From Aldrovandia affinis (Eukaryota > Chordata > Actinopteri > Notacanthiformes > Halosauridae), in contig JAINUG010000053.1 in the NCBI GenBank assembly GCA_029706075.1, positions 992,001 to 1,056,000 on the forward strand: a stretch of DNA of 64,000 bases. The letters run 5' to 3'. Position numbers and translations under genes: made by a program. The notes under the pieces are model-generated. The model was not told where the DNA came from. It did not search any database and saw only the letters and a list, made by a program, of their open reading frames with translations. This document shows, one piece after another, positions 24,141-58,180 of the stretch (position 1 is the stretch's first letter; the number at the start of each line of letters is the position of its first letter).

Positions 24141-24469
24141 ACTTTTCAAGTGCTTCCCAAACCCATGCAGACAGAGACACTCAAACTTTCCAGTCCGAGT
24201 TCTCTTTTACCAAACACACCAAGACCCTCGCTCAACAACAACCAACCAACAATCAATCAAAAATCAATCAACAATCAATGAACAACTCAGTACACAAGAA
24301 TGAATGACAGGACAAGACTAACTGATTCCCCATTCACCCCACCTGTTCTTAAATAGGCTTACTTTCTGCCTGGCTCAGGTGGGACTCGTGAGGCAATCAC
24401 TGGTCCAACATTCACACACCTAATCACAAAACACCTAACAATTGACAGACCACACCCACTCACATTCTA

Positions 24470-26390
24470 ACCGTCTGAAGCTGCGTGCGGCAGAAAGGAA
24501 ATGGAGAAAATCCAAATCCCCTGCAGCTCTGTCTGACTTCCACATACTCCTGGCTTCCTTCTCCGCTAACCTCTCCTCTGCTAAGTCTGCATTCTTCCTT
24601 TCTAAGATTCAATCCTCTGTTTCCAACCCACGTAAACTCTATGCTACATTTTCCTCTCTCCTCACCCCTCCTCCTCCCCCACCCCCCTCCTCTATAACCG
24701 CAGATGACTTCTCATCCTTCTTTCACGAGAAGGTTGAGGTCATTCGCAACTCCTTCCCCCCTACCCCTCCCTCTCCCATCCCGCTACCTAAACCTCCCAC
24801 CTCTCTGTCCTCCTTCTCACCCCTCCCTGACTCGGACATCCTTCAACTTGTTCTCTCCCACCGTCCCACCACCTGCCCTCTTGATCCCATTCCTTCCCCC
24901 CTCTTCCAGTCCATTGCTATGGACATCCTCCCCTTTGTCTCTAATGTCATTAACTCCTCTCTTTCCTCTGGCTCTGTCCCCTCCTCCCTCAAATGCGCCC
25001 AGGTTGTCCCCCTCCTCAAAAAACCCTCTCTGAATCCTGCTGTCATCTCTAACTACCGACCTGTCTCTCTCCTCCCTTTTCTCTCCAAAACGTTAGAGCG
25101 GGCTGTCTATAATCAACTGTCTGCTCATCTCTTACAGAACGACCTGCTTGATCCCAACCAATCTGGGTTCAGAGCCGGCCATTCCACAGAGACTGCTCTC
25201 CTTGCGGTCTCTGAGGCTCTTCACGTCGCTAAGTCCCGATCCCTTAGCTCCGTCCTCCTCCTCCTTGACCTGTCGGCGGCATTCGACACCGTGGACCACC
25301 GGATCCTGCTCTCATCTCTCGTCGAGATGGGAATCTCTGGATCTGTGCTGACATGGTTTGAGTCCTACCTGGCTGACCGGTCCTACCAGGTGGCCTGGAG
25401 AGGATCCCTCTCCTCTCCCCGCACCCTCTCTACCGGTGTCCCGCAGGGCCTCGGTGCTAGGCCCTGTCCTATTTTCTCTGTACACCAAGTCACTTGGCTC
25501 TGTTATTTCTGCTCATGGTTTTCCTATCACTGTTATGCTGATGACACTCAACTGTTTCTCTCCTTCCCTCCATCTGATACCCAGGTCCCGGCACGGATCT
25601 CTGCATGCCTGGCTGACATCTCCGCATGGATGTCCACCCACCACCTGAAGCTGAACCTGGGGAAGACAGAGCTGCTCTTCCTCCCAGCGAAGGGCTCCCC
25701 GATGATTGATGCGTCAATTACCGTGGAAGGCTCCATAGTGTCTCCGTCCCAGTCTGCCAGGAGTCTCGGGGTAACCTTGGACAACCAGCTGTGCTTCTCG
25801 AGCCATATTGCAGCGATCTCCCGGACCTGCCGTTTCTCCCTCCACAACATCCGGAGGATCAGACCGTTCCTCACCCAAGAGGCCACTCAACTCCTGGTCC
25901 AGGCCCTGGTGATCTCACGTCTGGACTACTGCAATTCCTTGCTGGCAGGCCTTCCGGCCTGTGCCATCAAGCCACTGCAACTAGTCCAGAACGCTGCTGC
26001 TCGCCTGGTGTTCAACCAGCGAAGTTCACCCACGTCACCCCTCTACTCTCCTCTCTGCATTGGCTCCCCATCGCAGCACGCATCAGATTCAAGTCACTGG
26101 TGCTTGCTTTTCAAGCGGCCAGAGGTACTGCTCCCCCATACCTCCAGTCACTCATCACGCCCTACACCCCGTCCAGACCCCTCCGCTCCGCCTCCGCTGG
26201 CAGACTGACTGCCCCATCCCTCCGGGCGCCTGGCAGCCGCTTCCTCGCGGTCTCGCCTCTTCTCTGTCCTGGTCCCTCGATGGTGGAACGACCTCCCGCA
26301 ATCGGTCAGGACTGCGGAATCACTTCCAATCTTCCGCAAGAGACTCAAAACCCACCTCTTCAGACTCCACTACCACTGAACACTGTCCAT
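24470..26390 (+). pseudogene. L2-type reverse transcriptase, 588-codon frame with internal shifts
   Basis: LINE polymerase. The long frame (24442-26208; LINE sequence from about 24470) contains FFHEKVEVIRNSFPP, RPTTCPLDPIPSPLFQS, AQVVPLLKKPSLNPAVISNY (RT block 2), QSGFRAGHSTETALLAV, LLLLDLSAAFDTVDHRILL (block 3 with AFD) and CYADDTQLFL (block 5), all in one frame. Between blocks 3 and 5 the expected GVPQGSVLGP text is replaced, because one extra C near 25449 shifts the frame and a later change restores it before YADD. A last shift near 26030 moves the C-terminus (LLSSLHWLPIAARIRFKSL) to another frame, ending in RLHYH near 26379. The apparent open frame is therefore not a working enzyme. Confidence 0.87.
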
Positions 26391-26424
26391 CTAGTCAATC
26401 TGTCATCACCACTGTTTACTTGTT

Positions 26425-26457
<33 letters not shown>

Positions 26458-26588
26458 CCACTAACCTTTTCTTTCCCAATGTTACAGGTATGATACGCAG
26501 ATGCCTGCAATGATGTCTTTTGCCGTTTTACTGCACTGATCTTGTACGCTAACTTTGATTGTTCTCACCTTGTATTAATGCACATCTT

Positions 26589-26623
26589 GTAAGTCGCTCT
26601 GGATAAGAGCGTCTGCTAAATGC
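26589..26623 (+). promoter_or_regulatory. L2 LINE 3' tail stem-loop (second copy)
   Basis: GTAAGTCGCTCTGGATAAGA then GCGTCTGCTAAATG. GCTCT-GGATA-AGAGC forms a 5 bp stem, one pair better than the copy at 15518. It is followed by AAATGTA repeats. Confidence 0.7.
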
Positions 26624-26810
26624 TTAAAATGTAAAATGTAAAATGTACAAATAGGTAAGTGAATAATCACTTACCAATTAACATAAATTAAATAATAATT
26701 AAATCAATTATGGCCTTTAGAGCAACCTTCCGGGCAACAGTTCACTCTTACACCCTGTGAGAGTGCCAAACCTGCCCCCGGAAAGTCTCCCTGCTCCAAA
26801 GCCCTCCACA

Positions 26811-44969: not shown

Positions 44970-45983
44970 AAATGTGATAAATGTGTTAAAGCATGAAGCT
45001 AAACATTGGCAATATAAGCGTACAATTAATTACACAGAAGCATATACTTAATTTCTAAATGATCACAAGGAAAATATTTCCTAATCACTTAGCATTACAA
45101 GTGCCTTGCGTAGAATCATAAGAGACGTAACCTCAGGAGTACAATAACAGAAACCATAAGAGCCATCATTTGCATTGCACTAGCATTCACACAAGTTGAA
45201 GTGGCTGGATCTAGGATATGTCCTAGAGCTTGGAACCAATATATGTCTGGGTGGGTGGGTTTCAGTCAGAGGCGGAGTATCGTGAGAAAGTCTGTAATTC
45301 TCACGGTGACAGTTGGCTCATCCGATCACATTTGGGAGGCATGGCCTCAGCAGGCAGGAATTCATGAGAGGGTGACATTTAATTAGAGCATATCAAGTTT
45401 CCTTAAAACTGCTGACTTTAACTCATCCCAACTGCCTTCGAAGTCAAGAAGAAAACAGATATAGTACACCATGCTGTTTTCCTTCCAGAACTGTGTGCGA
45501 GCGAGTGAGCTCATGCATTTGCCGACAGGGGGAGGGTTGCGGAGGGGTTGTGGTTAGAGTGGTAGGTAAAGCAGTTTGTCAATGGTGGGGGACCCAGAAC
45601 AGGGATAAATTGCCAGTTGGTGGCATGCAACTGTTATGCTATCGGTGGAGGGGAAGGTCATATCTACTTAGCTAGCTGGCAAGTTAACTTCCATAACCCA
45701 GCATTTAACAATACAATGTAATACAATACAATACAAAAAGCTCTTATATAGCGCTCTTCTTGCAAACAACCCAGGACGCTTTAGCAAGTGTTGACACAGT
45801 ACTAACTACCCTGACGTAGCTAGCTAGTTAAGTTTAAATATCGAGTTCTCATGTTAGCTAAAGATGGTTAAAACTGTTCCAACCACAATTTTCACATCAA
45901 ATAATGAAATCCTTGAATCTAGCTTAGATACTGACAGGAGCTTCAGTTGATTAGATTGCAATCATTAATAACCCTTAAATATG
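44970..45983. other. Mostly unassigned; AATAC microsatellite and a small dispersed motif
   Basis: (AATAC)n-like repeats at 45711-45734 lead into CTCTTATATAGCGCTCTTCT and CCAGGACGCTTTAGCAAG, a wording often repeated in fish genomes beside 'GCGCTTTA'. The rest shows no gene or element. Confidence 0.4.
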
Positions 45984-45985
45984 TA

Positions 45986-47408
<1,423 letters not shown>

Positions 47409-47410
47409 TA

Positions 47411-48595
47411 TATATTTATGGAATGTTATGCAAGTAACTTTGAAGCTAATCCATATATGTTTCATTTTTTAAATAATTTTTCCGCTTTTTTTCCCAATTT
47501 GGAATGCCCAATCGTACTCTTAAGCCACACGCCCCCTGCAATCTCCATTGTCCTCCAAGCTGGCGTTTTCTATTGCTTCAAAAACACTAGTTTCGCACTA
47601 AGGCCAATTGCTAAAGCAAAAACAGGTTCTGAACATGTGACAGAGCCAATCAGAAAGACGCATTAGTATCACTCAGTTAGGCGATGAGATAACATTCTGA
47701 CTGTTCACAATACATGAGAAGCTATCTGTGTGATACAAAAGTTTTATCTGGCAACTGTGTCCCCCCTAAATTTTGTTCTGCCTACCATATCGCACTGGTA
47801 GGTACATTTTCTGGCGGCTGTATCCCCTATACGCCCTAGAGTTGCACAAGTTCTTCTCATTGACTTCAACACAAAAACACAAAAAAATATTTTGAAGTGA
47901 AAGGACTGAATTCATATTTCAAACCAGGATGATGCATAATGAGGAAAACACGACAGCATATTGTTGATTTTTTTTGCAACTCAACTTTGACTGTAATAAC
48001 AAATAGTAGAACAAATACATTGTATGTATGTATATGCAGTCTCATTTCCTGCTCTACCATGCTGCAGGTCAAACAGAAGATGAGACTGCATGGTATAGGA
48101 ATGACTGAGATGGTAGCTTGTCTGGGATATCATTTCCCTTGGTAAACTGATTTATTCATAATGTCTCCATCTTGTTACATCTGCTATAGGCAAAGGCATG
48201 CATCCATATTGCATTGGCTTCATGAATTAATGATAATATTTCTCAATGGTAGCAATGCATAATTAGCACAGGCACCAAGTACTGTAAAAACCAGTCAGCT
48301 TGATCCACTTCTCTGTCAACTGCATTCACACAATCTCTTCCTGTTTTATGTGTGAACACTGAAATCTGTAGGCTTCGCAGTCTGCAATGTGCCTCTCCGA
48401 GTGCTTTGTGAATCCAATGTTCCTGTTTGTTAGGATGTTTGTGCTTTTACAGTCACGAAGGAATACCTAAATTAATCTACCCATGCGATACATCTCAAAC
48501 TTGGGGACCCCGTTTCTTGGTAGTTTCAGTTGGATTTACATGGCACTGCCCCTCTGCCCTCCTCCTCCGCTTATCTGTAACTGTGTTTGACATCA
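47411..48595. other. Mostly unassigned; one small dispersed fragment
   Basis: 47465-47525 holds TTTTTTTCCCAATTTGGAATG, CCCAATCGTACTCTTAAG, a fragment of a repeat common in fish. The rest has no gene or element that I recognise. Confidence 0.4.
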
Positions 48596-48735: not shown

Positions 48736-49115
48736 CTGATTCTGACCCCTAGCGCTCACTCTACAACACGGCTGTGCACTTCTCTCTTGGCTGTTTTGTT
48801 GTCTCAACAGTGATTTGGTCAAATTCGCTGCTCCTGTCGGATCCTGGGAAATCCAGAATACTTGCTGTTACTGTATCCCCCGGCAGAGTTTCTCTCTCAG
48901 ACCAAGTGAGGTATTACCTAGCTAATCTGTAATCCCAAGAGCTGTATTTGCCTATGCATTGTATATGTGCTGTCTGCTCTGGTTACTTCATGCAGTTCAT
49001 GTAATATCCATGCCAGTACCCTTGGTTCACATACAACATATATGGATACAACTTATAACTTGTTTTTAATGGTCAGCTCAGCTCTGTGGTCAGCTCTGTG
49101 TTGTGTTCGCAACGT

Positions 49116-49121
49116 AATTAC
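49116..49121 (+). repeat. Target duplication of hairpin-rich LTR-like element, left
   Basis: AATTAC, repeated at 51648-51653. Confidence 0.82.
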
Positions 49122-49166
49122 TGTAAGGGTTGGTGGTGATAGGCGCCACTCGCAGAACCCTAGGGG

Positions 49167-49216
49167 ATCAAAAAGTTAGACGGAACTCGTCTAACCACTA
49201 GCTCTGTAAAACAGAG
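49167..49216 (+). other. Two adjacent hairpins near the 3' end of the LTR-like element
   Basis: TTAGAC-GGAACTC-GTCTAA (49168-49187) and CTCTGT-AAA-ACAGAG (49202-49216) are perfect 6 bp stems 14 bases apart. Confidence 0.75.
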
Positions 49217-49439
49217 AATAGGGAAGATAATTAGGGATGAACGTAAACCACACCCACCGGGTGGTAACTCCAAGTGTCTTAAAACGTAAAGGCAATGATA
49301 GCCAAACGAACAAGTAGTAACCTGAACCAGTCCAACCGAACTGAACAAAAGCAACCTGAATCAAAGCACCGCCTAGCGGGCAAGGTTCTTTATAATAGTT
49401 ACAACTAAAAGTTCGTAAAATAAAGACACGAGTATCCCA

Positions 49440-50000
49440 AAATAAAGGCTAGGAGAGCCGAGAGAACATGGTTGAAACCCAGAAACAGCCCAACAGGCTG
49501 AACAACCAGAACCCGAACGAAAAGCGCTAATAGCGAGCAGGGTTTTTTTACATTGGGTACAATAAACATGTTACATAGTTTGCATAATACCTAAAGTTCC
49601 GAGCGTCCGAAACGCGAAAAGCCAGGAGAGCCACAGAACCACATTGCAACCCGAAACAGTCAAGTGACTGAACAAACGAAACCCAACAGAAAACCCATAA
49701 CAAATGAGCAAGGTTTCTAATAAGGGTACAATTTAAATAAGTATTATGTAAATACCCGAACCAATAATACTGAACATCCCAAAATGTGAAAGGCTAGGGA
49801 AGCCAACAGAACCAGGTTATCACCTGAAAACAGTCTAGACGACTGAACCCACGAAAACAAAATGAAAACGCTTAATAGCGAGCAAAGGGTTTTTTAGAAA
49901 GACACAAGTAAATAAATTATTATGACTGGACATAACCAAAAGTACTGAGCGTCCGGAAACGCATCACATGGTAAAACCTGACCCACTAGTTCTGAACGTC
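49440..50000 (+). repeat. Tandem ~170 bp hairpin units
   Basis: Successive units can be anchored on the AGCGAGCAAGGTTT-type motif at about 49371, 49528, 49704 and 49876 (spacing 157-176). Each holds a GGCT...AGCC stem, a CAG(C/T)C...G(G/A)CTG stem, a CGCT...AGCG stem and a GCGT...ACGC stem. Identity between units is low outside these motifs. Confidence 0.75.
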
Positions 50001-50572
50001 CGAAAACTAGAAACGGTTAGGGAGGACCGACAGAACAGCAGGACGACTGGACCCACATCCGACATCTTCGTCAGACAGCAGGGCCCACAAGTTGACCTGC
50101 TATCTGGCATCCGCAAAAAACTGCAAAGCCACCAAAACAACATTGAAACCCGAAGACAACCTCAGCGACCAGGAGGGTACAATTTACACACGAGAGAAGT
50201 ACAATAGTGGGTACAATTAAATGGAGGCGAAAAGGTCTTAGCGTATGGAAACGCAAGAGCCTAAGAGACAGTTAGGGGGGGATGACAGACAGCAGGGAAC
50301 AACAAGACCCACATCTGACGTCCGCCAAAACTCGAAACGGTTAAGGGGACCGACAGAACCACAGAGTAAAACCTATACCAGGAGATCTGCTGAACAAGAA
50401 TGAAACCAAAATAAAAACGCATTTTTAGCGAACAAGGTTTCTAATACATAAGTGACAACGAATTTGGTTATCAAAAGTTCTGAGCGTATGTAAACGCAGG
50501 AGGGCTAGGAGAACCGCCAGAACAATAAGTAACCAGTAAACAGCCTATCAGACTGAACAAATGAAACTGTGA

Positions 50573-50910
50573 AACACTCCTAACCACGAGTGAGTTTCAA
50601 ATGTAAGAAATAAGGTTAGGAAAATAGAACCCATAAACAGCCTAGACGACTGAACAAATGAAACTAGAGGAACACTCCTAACCACGAGTGAGTTTCAAAT
50701 GTAGGCACTAAAGGTTATAAAATAGAACCCATAAACAGCCTAGACGACTGAACAAATGAAACCAGAGGAACACTCCTAACCACGAGTGAGTTTCAAATGT
50801 AGGAACTATTGGTTATAAAATAGAACCCATAAACAGCCTAGACGACTGAACAAATGAAACCAGAGGAACACTCCTAACCACGAGTGAGTTTCAAATGTAG
50901 GAACTATAGG
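50573..50910 (+). repeat. 98 bp tandem repeat, four copies, inside the array
   Basis: AACACTCCTAACCACGAGTG starts at 50573, 50671, 50769 and 50867, exactly 98 bp apart. Units are nearly identical, unlike the diverged ~170 bp array around them, so this is a recent local expansion. Each unit keeps CAGCCTAGACGACTG and the small stem CTCGTGGTT/AACCACGAG is not complete. Confidence 0.9.
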
Positions 50911-51487
50911 TTATTAAATGGCACAGAGCGTAAGAAAACGCAGGAGGCTAGCAAAGCCGCCATAACAAAATTGAAACCCGAAAACAACCTCAGCGACCCA
51001 GAGGGTACAATTTACACACGAGAGAAGTTCCATAAGTGGGTACAATTAAATGGTGAATGAACCGACCTTAACTCAAAACTCTTTATGTCCAAAACGAGAA
51101 AGGCAGTTAGCCAAAAGAACCAGTAGTAACCCACGAACCAGTCGACCCGGCTGGATAAAACGAAACCAAAAGAAAAGCGCATTTTAGCGAACAAGGTTTC
51201 TTAAAGCAGGAAACTAAAATGAGTTCTTTTCGTTAGGACCAGAGTACTCCCCAAAAACGTAAACGGCTAGAAGAGCCAAAAGAACAAGTTAGCAACCCAA
51301 AACAGTCGAACAGACTGACGAACGGAAACCAACCGAAAACCCCCATTTAGAGAGAAAGGTTTCCTTAAAAGGGACAACTAACTAAGTTCTTGCGTCTTTA
51401 GAAGGGGTTGAAATGGAGATAGTCGTTTCTAAAGAAAGTCTTTGTGAAGTCTTTGTGAACGTCTTGAAAAAGACATTCTTACCTTAC

Positions 51488-51512
51488 CGGCTAAAAATCG
51501 TAAAGATGGCTT
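51488..51512. other. 9 bp-stem hairpin downstream of the TATA box
   Basis: AAATCGTAA-AGATGGC-TTACGATTT, a perfect inverted repeat ~35 bases downstream of the minus-strand TATA box, so it would lie at the very start of a minus-strand transcript. Confidence 0.8.
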
Positions 51513-51544
51513 ACGATTTCGCCCCGAATGAAGTTAGGTGCGGG

Positions 51545-51552
51545 TATTTATA
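51545..51552 (-). promoter_or_regulatory. TATA box of the LTR-like element
   Basis: TATAAATA on the minus strand in CCCTATAAATACCCGCACC, ~95 bp from the element's 5' end. Position and flanks suit an LTR promoter. Confidence 0.7.
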
Positions 51553-51586
51553 GGGAAGAGATAATTGGTCATTCAAGCCAGCTGAG

Positions 51587-51608
51587 CGCCTTAAGGAAAA
51601 AGGCGCAC
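51587..51608. other. GCGCCTT/AAGGCGC hairpin in the presumed U3
   Basis: GCGCCTT-AAGGAA-AAGGCGC type inverted repeat upstream of the TATA box on the minus strand; a 7 bp stem. Could be a protein-binding palindrome or part of the same hairpin habit as the array. Confidence 0.6.
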
Positions 51609-51647
51609 ACCGCCATCTGGTGGTGAATCTGGGGAACAACCGTGACA

Positions 51648-51653
51648 AATTAC
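51648..51653 (+). repeat. Target duplication of hairpin-rich LTR-like element, right
   Basis: AATTAC, partner of 49116-49121. Confidence 0.82.
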
Positions 51654-52129
51654 AATATATAATTCTTTATAAATTCTATTTATATATTGTAAATATAACT
51701 AAATTGACTATGCACATGATAAACTTATTTAACCAACTCGGTACCTTTTTGTATTTTTACATAATGTGTGTTCAAAATAATTGAATATATTCCACTCTAA
51801 AACTGATATTTTTGTAACTTCACAACATAGTTTTATCTTATAAAATAAAGGTTATAGGACACGTGGCACACAGACGAGTAGCATGCCTGTGGCATACATA
51901 TGCTCTGATGGTTAGGGACCAGCTCTCCTCTGTCTGTACCCAGAGGAAGAGCACAAATGAAAACAACACCTCGATCAGATGAAAAGATTCGCACTCTTGT
52001 GGCTGAATTTTTTTCTTGTGAAATACCAAATGAGAAATACATTTTGTTCAAATGATGGAAATCGGTAAGATATTTTACAGAAAGTCATTGCACATCGATA
52101 AGGCTGGCATGTCATTCTTTCATGTATGT
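51654..52129. other. Unassigned AT-rich sequence
   Basis: No gene or named element; open frames on the minus strand lack family features. Confidence 0.4.
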
Positions 52130-53245: not shown

Positions 53246-53357
53246 TAACAGCCTCATGCCGCAGCACCACTGCAGGCGTGCGTATATATCCTGAAAATGC
53301 ACCGCTTGTCATGGTTTATTACTTACATATAAACACTAGCTTTTACATTCAAAATAT

Positions 53358-53943
53358 TGTGGTGTCCCCAGGGGTTGGGCGACACTCACGGACCTTGCAG
53401 AGGGCGTAGGCAAGTTCAAGAACCAGGAGGAGGCAGTATTCAAAAACAAAATGGTAATTTATTAAACGAACACTTGACAACACAAAACAAAGGGTGGGGT
53501 CTTCGGGGGAATACAAACACATAAAGTCCGCAATCCTTAGCTCGTCATCAATGTCCAATCCAATTCCAAAATCCAGTTCAGTTCCGTAATCCAGTCCGTA
53601 GTCAATCCAAAGGGGGTCCTCAAAACAATCCAAGTTTCATACACAACCAAACACACACTCCAACACTCTCTCCAAATCCTGGCTGGTCAAATGACTTCAC
53701 AGGTATTTCACTCTCCAAACAAACACAGCAACTCCTTCCCACTCACGTTCCTACTCCTCTCCCAGTGTAGTGGGAATCAGCCCTTTAAATAGGCCTCAAA
53801 ATGGCTTTCAGCTGGGTGTTAGTCCCATTGCCTTCACTTGGCTCAGGTGTGACTGTGGCCTGCTGGGAAATGTAGTATTTCCTGGCTCCCATGTGTTGTA
53901 GGCCAGGCAGCCATTTTGTTGTGCAGCCCCTTGGGCTGCCACA
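53358..53943 (-). mobile_element. Solo LTR, family gamma, copy A (586 bp)
   Basis: The minus strand starts TGTGGCAGCCCAAGGGGC and ends TGGGGACACCACA. ATAT occurs on both sides (53354-53357, 53944-53947), a 4 bp duplication. TATTTAAAGG on the minus strand near 53783-53792 and AATAAA at 53458-53463 give a promoter and poly(A) order inside the LTR. Copy B lies at 57611-58181. Confidence 0.78.
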
Positions 53944-57589: not shown

Positions 57590-57610
57590 TATATATATAT
57601 ATATATATAT

Positions 57611-58180
57611 TGTGGTGTCCCCAGGGGTTGGGCGACACTCACGGACCTTGCAGAGGGCGTAGGCAAGTTCAAAAACACAGAGGCAGTATTCAGAACAAAA
57701 ACAATAATTTAATAAATAAACTCAAAACAAAGGGTGGGGTCTTCAGGGGAATACAAACACACAAAGTCCGCAATCCTTCTCGTTGTCGATGTCCGTTCCA
57801 ATTCCAAATCAAAGTCAGTTCCGTAATCCAGTCCGTAGTCAATCCAAAGGGGGTCCTCAAAACAATCCAATTTTCATACACAAAACAATCCAACAAACAC
57901 TCTCTCTCTCCAAATACTGGCTAGTCAATCGACTTCACAGTTTCACTCTCCAAACAAATACAGCAACTCCTTCCCAAACACATTCCTACTCCTCTCAATG
58001 GGTAATGGGATTCAGCCCTTTAAATAGGCCTTGAAATGGCCTTCAGCTGTTCATTAGTCCAATTGCCGTGACTTTGCTCAGGTGTTTCTGCGGCCTGCTG
58101 GGAAATGTAGTGTTTTTGGGCTGCCATGTGTTGGAGGCCAGGCAGCCATTTTATGGTGCAGCCCCCTTGCAGGCTGCCAC

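Follow-up and report, generated by a model that had tools for sequence, protein, structure and literature searches.

A probable young solo long terminal repeat with an unusual array of retained hairpin modules in the ray-finned fish Aldrovandia affinis

The element and its boundaries

In this paper we describe an element resembling a long terminal repeat (LTR) in the genome of Aldrovandia affinis (GenBank assembly GCA_029706075.1, contig JAINUG010000053.1). The stretch of DNA that was analysed, called the window throughout, comprises 64,000 nucleotides (contig positions 992,001 to 1,056,000), and the element occupies 2526 bp of its minus strand (49122..51647). It is recognised by TG..CA ends, a 6-bp target-site duplication, inverted ends, a TATA box and its observed/expected ratio of CpG, and most of its length is a tandem array of small hairpin modules. 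We consider it probable that the element is a solo LTR of young age; its array of retained modules is unusual, and transcription of this array is predicted.

The locus was read from 48800 to 51900 on the plus strand and from 49000 to 51760 on the minus strand. On the plus strand the insertion junctions read AATTAC|TGTAAGGG...CCGTGACA|AATTAC, with GTGACA as the right edge of the element and AATTAC directly outside it. The two copies of the duplication lie at 49116..49121 and 51648..51653, which confirms the TG...CA ends and the flanking AATTAC reported in a preliminary description of the locus. Read on the minus strand, the 5' end TGTCACGGTTG (51637..51647) is the inverted partner of the 3' end ..CAACCCTTACA (49122..49132), with 9 of 11 bases matching, and the terminal words of the element are TGTCACGG and CCTTACA. 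When 600 x 600 bp around the ends were searched, no other TG..CA pair was flanked by a 6-bp duplication. Taken by itself the duplication is weak evidence, because 547 of 2000 mononucleotide shuffles also gave one; a 6-bp duplication together with an inverted match of at least 9/11 was found in 1 of 2000.

Ends of this kind are expected of an LTR, which has TG...CA with short inverted repeats and a target duplication of 4-6 bp. Imperfect inverted ends of 11 bp with a 6-bp duplication fit the class of DNA transposons with terminal inverted repeats (TIRs) just as well. The element could therefore be a non-autonomous DNA transposon, with short imperfect TIRs and an internal array of palindromes bound by the transposase. 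Its ends and duplication would suit cut-and-paste transposition equally, it has no canonical poly(A) hexamer, and spaced arrays of palindromes would suit DNA-binding proteins. We regard this origin as unlikely, given the TG..CA ends, the TATA box, the initiator-like site and the hairpin close to the start; inverted repeats of about 7 bases are moreover common at LTR ends, according to passages of PMC3601003.

Within the 2526 bp no direct terminal repeats join the two ends, and the direct repeats inside the element are those of the array, except for an 11-bp repeat at 51436-51465. A terminal-repeat retrotransposon in miniature, or another small complete element of the LTR-internal-LTR type, does not fit this lack of a direct repeat joining the ends. 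No second copy of the element was found in the 64-kb window, where the best hit was one 15-bp match (E 0.47). A repeated flank could have revealed an empty site, but no further copy of either 2 kb flank in the window extends as far as the insertion point.

Promoter-like start and 3' region

The TATA box TATAAATA (51545..51552, minus strand) starts at base 96 from the minus-strand 5' end, in agreement with the position of about 95 bp given earlier. Downstream of it lies TCATTC (51526..51531, minus strand), a candidate initiator that fits the pattern TCAKTY found in passages of PMC3601003. Its A at 51529 would be the start of transcription, 23 nt after the first base of TATAAATA. The sequence thus has the TATA box upstream of a start that is expected of an LTR, with a short spacing and a start that is putative.

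Just downstream of the putative start is a perfect 9-bp hairpin (51495..51519, minus strand), which begins 10 nt beyond 51529. The 131 nt of 51400-51530 fold with a z-score of -3.44, and 1 of 200 shuffles was as low. Passages of PMC2664473 count a stem loop immediately past the start among the conserved features of LTRs. Folding places a further 9-bp hairpin with one U.G pair downstream of the promoter (51457..51478), and the putative U3 holds a perfect 7-bp hairpin (51586..51606), both on the minus strand. Near the 3' end, sequence and folding give a perfect 8-bp hairpin (49175..49195) and a perfect 6-bp hairpin (49202..49216) on the same strand, in a region of 142 nt that folds only moderately better than its shuffles (z -1.50). 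TATAAA at 49389..49394 (minus strand, element position 2254) is a non-canonical candidate for a poly(A) hexamer. What is seen at the start and the end agrees with the general organisation of an LTR as given in passages of PMC3601003 and PMC2664473.

The ends, the duplication and a promoter-like start with a strong hairpin downstream support the earlier label of LTR-like, which is weakened by the missing AATAAA, ATTAAA and AGTAAA. We consider identity as an LTR likely from these sequence features, although a canonical poly(A) signal is missing and a single copy was seen.

Two further motifs lie at this end of the element. CCACCAGATGGCGG (51610..51623, minus strand), in the putative U3, is a CTCF-like core and the only match in the 64-kb window to the pattern used for this motif; sites of this kind could be spread by a young LTR. 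GGTAAGGTAAG (51478-51488, minus strand), which directly follows the first hairpin, resembles a 5' splice site.

Architecture of the tandem array

The array spans 49272..51390 on the minus strand, about 2.1 kb and most of the element. It consists of diverged units with up to four stems, which follow each other in the minus-strand order E-D-B-A. Anchoring on the first stem defines 12 units with anchor sites from 49272 to 51241, whose lengths in order are 157, 171, 171, 175, 47, 245, 78, 165, 444, 157, 159 and 150 bp. The interior had been described as units of about 170 bp, which holds for 8 of the 12 (150-175 bp). Three others are truncated or mosaic pieces of 47, 245 and 78 bp (at 49946, 49993 and 50238), and the ninth unit, of 444 bp, contains a recent sub-array of 3.9 copies of 98 bp with stems D and E only (50537..50919, minus strand).

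The block at 50123..50224 is 91% identical to 50951-51053 and represents a larger internal duplication. Units 1-2 also resemble the last two units, with 70% identity over 279 columns. Taken together, these resemblances show that the array grew by block duplication too. Pairwise identity among 13 unit pieces ranges from 65 to 85% with gaps ignored. A covariance model of the unit gave 11 matches in the window, 9 of them its own training units, and all lie inside the element, to which the array is confined by this measure.

The element also has a base bias, the minus strand being T-rich and the plus strand A-rich. Unpaired columns of the units are about half A on the plus strand (391/787); A-rich unpaired positions are typical of many structured RNAs.

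Age of the insertion

The CpG observed/expected ratio is 0.85 in the element and 0.44 elsewhere in the window, and the corresponding TpG ratios are 1.01 and 1.26. The high CpG ratio and the perfect 6-bp duplication therefore suggest a recent insertion. We conclude that the insertion is probably young, assuming that methylation at the locus equals that of its surroundings. The unit pieces differ by 15-35%, and so the units would have diverged before landing, while the lineage was active. This divergence thus probably predates the insertion.

Stems and folding

The stems can be read directly in several units. Stem A is GCGT..ACGC in unit 3 (49603..49615) and has the counterpart ACAT..ATGT in unit 4 (49774-49787). 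Stem B is GGCT-N5-AGCC in unit 2 (49447..49459), where alignment folding also places it. Stem D was found by a hairpin scan as CAGCC-N5-GGCTG in unit 2 (49486..49500), again with support from alignment folding, and as CAGTC-N5-GACTG in unit 4 (49831..49845). All the forms of stem D reported previously, namely CAGCC-N5-GGCTG, CAGTC-N4/5-GACTG and the mismatched CAGCC...GACTG, are present. The proposed exchange between CGCT...AGCG and CCGC-CTA-GCGG depends on a one-base shift of the alignment and is left uncounted. Double changes that keep pairing, as the preliminary description reported, do exist and are few, with 7 cells in 6 pairs in a structure-blind alignment.

Perfect hairpins are in excess in the array compared with 200 shuffles when stems of at least 4 bp (57 vs 39.3 ± 6.3) or at least 5 bp (16 vs 9.3 ± 3.0) are counted; at 6 bp or more there is no excess (1 vs 2.0). 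The 170-nt windows of the array fold with a mean z-score of -1.73 on the plus strand and -1.40 on the minus strand (23 overlapping windows, 60 shuffles each), and control windows with -0.28 and -0.34, respectively (standard deviation about 1.3; 120 windows, 25 shuffles each).

Consensus folds were obtained from three structure-blind MAFFT alignments per strand, using 9 of the 13 unit pieces and RIBOSUM scoring. Compared with 300 column shuffles the consensus energy has z-scores of -5.6 to -6.2 on the plus strand and -4.0 to -4.6 on the minus strand, and no shuffle was as low. On the plus strand, stems B, D and the outer stem E appear in all three runs and stem A in two of the three. These z-scores alone are no proof of selection, because column shuffling destroys ancestral inverted repeats.

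Retention of pairing in the diverged units

We also used a tree-aware null model, in which substitutions were moved along the tree between columns of like rate and the structure was held fixed. Pairing is retained in 86% of cells on the plus strand, with a null expectation of 72 ± 4%, and in 90% on the minus strand, with an expectation of 77%; in both cases 0 of 300 null alignments did as well. The test favours the observed structure, because this structure was derived from the same alignment. The consensus energy lies below the null with p = 0.007 on the plus strand and p = 0.08 on the minus strand. Covarying cells number 7 on the plus strand and 4 on the minus strand, against 3.0 (p = 0.057) and 1.8 (p = 0.11) expected.

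Structures slid along the alignment pair far less than those in register, reaching at most 47% vs 84% on the plus strand and 50% vs 90% on the minus strand; as a caveat for such pair counting, in 5 to 25% of trials related sequences that have no structure come close to values of this size. The minus-strand structure of 17 pairs, which has a different long helix, has a covariation score reached by 6 of 500 shuffles. With hand-chosen registers of 13 pieces we count 8 further Watson-Crick types against 3.0 expected (p = 0.0015), a result that is biased because the registers were picked to pair.

The recent sub-array gives another view of the stems. Among the four 98-bp copies, none of the 30 stem columns varies and 21 of the 68 other columns do (p = 0.0003); restricted to the core, the comparison is 0/30 stem columns with 7/29 non-stem columns (p = 0.0046). 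The stems in this comparison were named after inspecting the sequence.

Could the stems have been kept by mutation and not by selection? Short template switching at the DNA or cDNA level would copy one arm of a hairpin onto the other, and passages of PMC8794818 describe such a mechanism for RNA hairpins. In stem A of unit 4 two pairs depart together from the common form, as a single switch would yield. Five of the 7 double-changed cells are alone in their stem, and non-Watson-Crick combinations make up 43 of the 199 cells read by hand, which leads us to judge this explanation very unlikely. Decay of CpG is a further possible cause of double changes, since of the two covarying pairs of stem A one, with 2 of the 7 double-changed cells, falls within a CpG. 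This is made less likely by the little CpG loss that the element shows.

We conclude that a modular structure is present in the array and is retained, and that selection for RNA folding is plausible. The chain of conserved hairpins proposed before is supported as regards consensus fold and pair retention; the claim of compensatory changes under selection is borderline once ancestry is accounted for, and depends on alignment and strand.

The folded strand

In the hand-read helices 156 of the 199 pair cells are Watson-Crick, 13 are G.T, 16 are A.C and 14 are other combinations. The two mismatches that tell the strands apart, A.C and G.T, are therefore about equally frequent. The array as a whole folds better on the plus strand. 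The 98-bp units fold better on the minus strand, and the U.G pair in the hairpin at 51457-51478, whose plus-strand equivalent is A.C, favours a minus-strand RNA. Covariation under the tree-aware null favours the plus strand and the shuffle control favours the minus strand. Mismatch counts, folding scores and covariation tests, taken together, favour neither RNA strand.

This lack of a favoured strand would be expected if the palindromes were binding sites in DNA, such as enhancer-like repeats recognised by a dimeric factor, and the folding of RNA played no part. Tandem repeats in U3 can indeed act in transcription, according to passages of PMC3601003. Such repeats sit in U3, whereas those of the element come after the promoter-like site. 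The loops also vary in length among units, with 4 and 5 nt for stem D and 5 and 6 nt for stem A, and a dimeric site would presumably require fixed spacing. Binding sites in DNA are thus a quite unlikely reason for the palindromes.

Searches for related sequences

Against Rfam 15 the element had a single match up to E 5 (E 1.2, 16.9 bits vs a gathering score of 100), and no ribozyme was matched. Words of the hammerhead-like form CTGA..GAAA were spotted by eye on the plus strand. The element is unmatched in a phage collection, which is not meant for fish genomes, and an exact pattern of the 98-bp core was found in 0 viral contigs and 0 prokaryote genome contigs. Exact matching of the U3 motif gave 0 viral contigs and 1 bacterial contig, and a degenerate pattern of stem D gave 18 viral contigs with one match each. 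We judge these 19 viral and bacterial loci to be chance: up to E 1 the unit model matches them 4 times, with 0.12 as the best value, and blastn aligns pieces of at most 36 bp. The silence of the phage, viral and prokaryote collections says little, because they are not meant to hold fish genomes. Stop-to-stop frames of the minus-strand array, used as protein queries for spurious gene models in other fish, gave no match.

Among open-access papers, judged by their listings and the beginnings of their abstracts, there was no description of an LTR with a tandem hairpin array. Literature searches with short stretches of the element listed papers that look unrelated by title. Passages of PMC8672886 on endogenous retroviruses in zebrafish describe no such arrays, and by their account the method used hardly detects solo LTRs.

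Neighbouring elements

Other mobile elements are found in the window. A fragment of a Sleeping-Beauty-type transposase (46286-46999) is flanked by inverted repeats of about 230 bp with 92% identity, and by its sequence the whole (45973-47421) is a Tc1-like element with long terminal repeats. A reverse transcriptase frame of a long interspersed nuclear element (LINE) at 24439-26629 on the plus strand is followed by an UnaL2 3' element (26577-26629). This LINE tail is the only Rfam match at gathering scores in the window and lies outside the LTR-like element. Among the matches listed for the reverse transcriptase (at least 120), those with a named source are fish, bar one bacterial label. Together with the UnaL2 element and the transposase domain, these matches point to a ray-finned fish as the probable source of the window. 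In and beyond the right flank there is a direct repeat (53354-53646 and 57607-57883, 86% identical).

Discussion

Our tentative reading is that a retrovirus-like element left a young solo LTR, or a terminal unit resembling one, at the locus, and that its hairpin array is transcribed and under selection. Transcription would run on the minus strand from a U3 of about 120 bp with a TATA box and an initiator-like site. The transcript would contain a stem-loop just past the start, about 2.1 kb of tandem modules with at most four hairpins each, and two more stem-loops before the end. The array would have expanded by duplication of units and blocks and diverged while the lineage was still mobile. Stems would be retained because folding turns the transcript into a string of small hairpins, with many sites at which a protein can bind. 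We can only guess at this protein; the element's own Gag, in packaging, or a host factor for RNA export or stability would be most plausible.

Several results weigh against this reading. The analysis rests on one copy of the element. The distance of 23 nt from TATA box to initiator is below the usual 30-31, and the poly(A) signal of an LTR is lacking, with no AATAAA, ATTAAA or AGTAAA on the minus strand of the element. The excess of hairpins is modest and concerns short stems only, single units fold moderately (z -0.3 to -1.9), and the array as a whole folds slightly better on the plus strand, against the direction of the promoter (-1.73 vs -1.40). Default RNAalifold on a similar alignment recovers stems B and D only, with 2 of 8 pairs double-changed, and its covariation term is unfavourable on the plus strand (+0.67) and slightly favourable on the minus strand (-0.34). 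If each null alignment is given a fold of its own, the observed fraction of paired cells is nothing out of the ordinary (p = 0.40 on the plus strand and 0.17 on the minus strand). With the structure fixed, covarying pairs number 6 vs 2.4 on the plus strand (p = 0.03) and 3 vs 1.6 on the minus strand (p = 0.19), and without rate matching neither is significant (p = 0.12 and 0.77). The covariation score of the 15-pair structure of the plus strand is reached by 128 of 500 shuffles, and slid structures have similar numbers of double-changed pairs (up to 3 vs 4 and up to 6 vs 4).

These doubts raise the question whether the array is an ordinary worn minisatellite inside a solo LTR, in which ancestral inverted repeats persist by descent, turnover or base constraint with no selection for folding. 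The borderline and alignment-dependent compensatory changes, the double changes of the slid controls and the modest excess of hairpins would all fit such a history, as would stem D, which is mostly an invariant CAG...CTG and hence uninformative on pairing. We nevertheless find a minisatellite of this kind somewhat unlikely. Pairs are retained beyond the rate-matched tree null (0/300, with a structure from the same alignment), the 98-bp copies vary in loops and linkers while their stems stay constant, and the shuffle control for the minus-strand structure gave 6/500.

The reading as an LTR with a selected hairpin array can be compared with known systems. Vertebrate retroviral and Ty3/gypsy LTRs, with their U3-R-U5 plan, share with the element the inverted TG..CA ends, the duplication, the TATA box, the initiator-like site and the stem-loop after the start (passages of PMC3601003 and PMC2664473). 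Unlike them, the element has about 2.4 kb downstream of its promoter, mostly tandem array, and no AATAAA. R is given as 11 to 150 bp long in passages of PMC3601003, which also place the tandem repeats of LTRs in U3.

Structured RNA close to an LTR has precedents, and the Rex-responsive element of deltaretroviruses is located in R. It is likewise read by a protein, as described in passages of PMC2664473, the protein of our element being hypothetical. Deltaretroviruses have one such structure, whereas the element has many small repeated modules. The constitutive transport elements of simple retroviruses are structured motifs for a host export factor; they differ in number and size of modules. 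Satellite-like arrays inside LTR retrotransposons also consist of tandem units in a non-coding part, and we know of none with conserved hairpin modules.

A bolder and improbable suggestion is that a fish LTR lineage has turned its transcribed LTR into a multivalent RNA scaffold of 2 kb, which would serve as a platform for packaging, export or condensation. About a dozen modules with at most four hairpins each would have multiplied by duplication and diverged with selection acting on their folding. To our knowledge no retroelement family with such an architecture has been described. An LTR is commonly regarded as a promoter that has a short R and U5. A young LTR consisting largely of retained hairpin modules in tandem would demonstrate that the transcribed part can grow into a structural RNA, and the many diverged units in each molecule would provide a built-in test between RNA selection and template-switch mutation.
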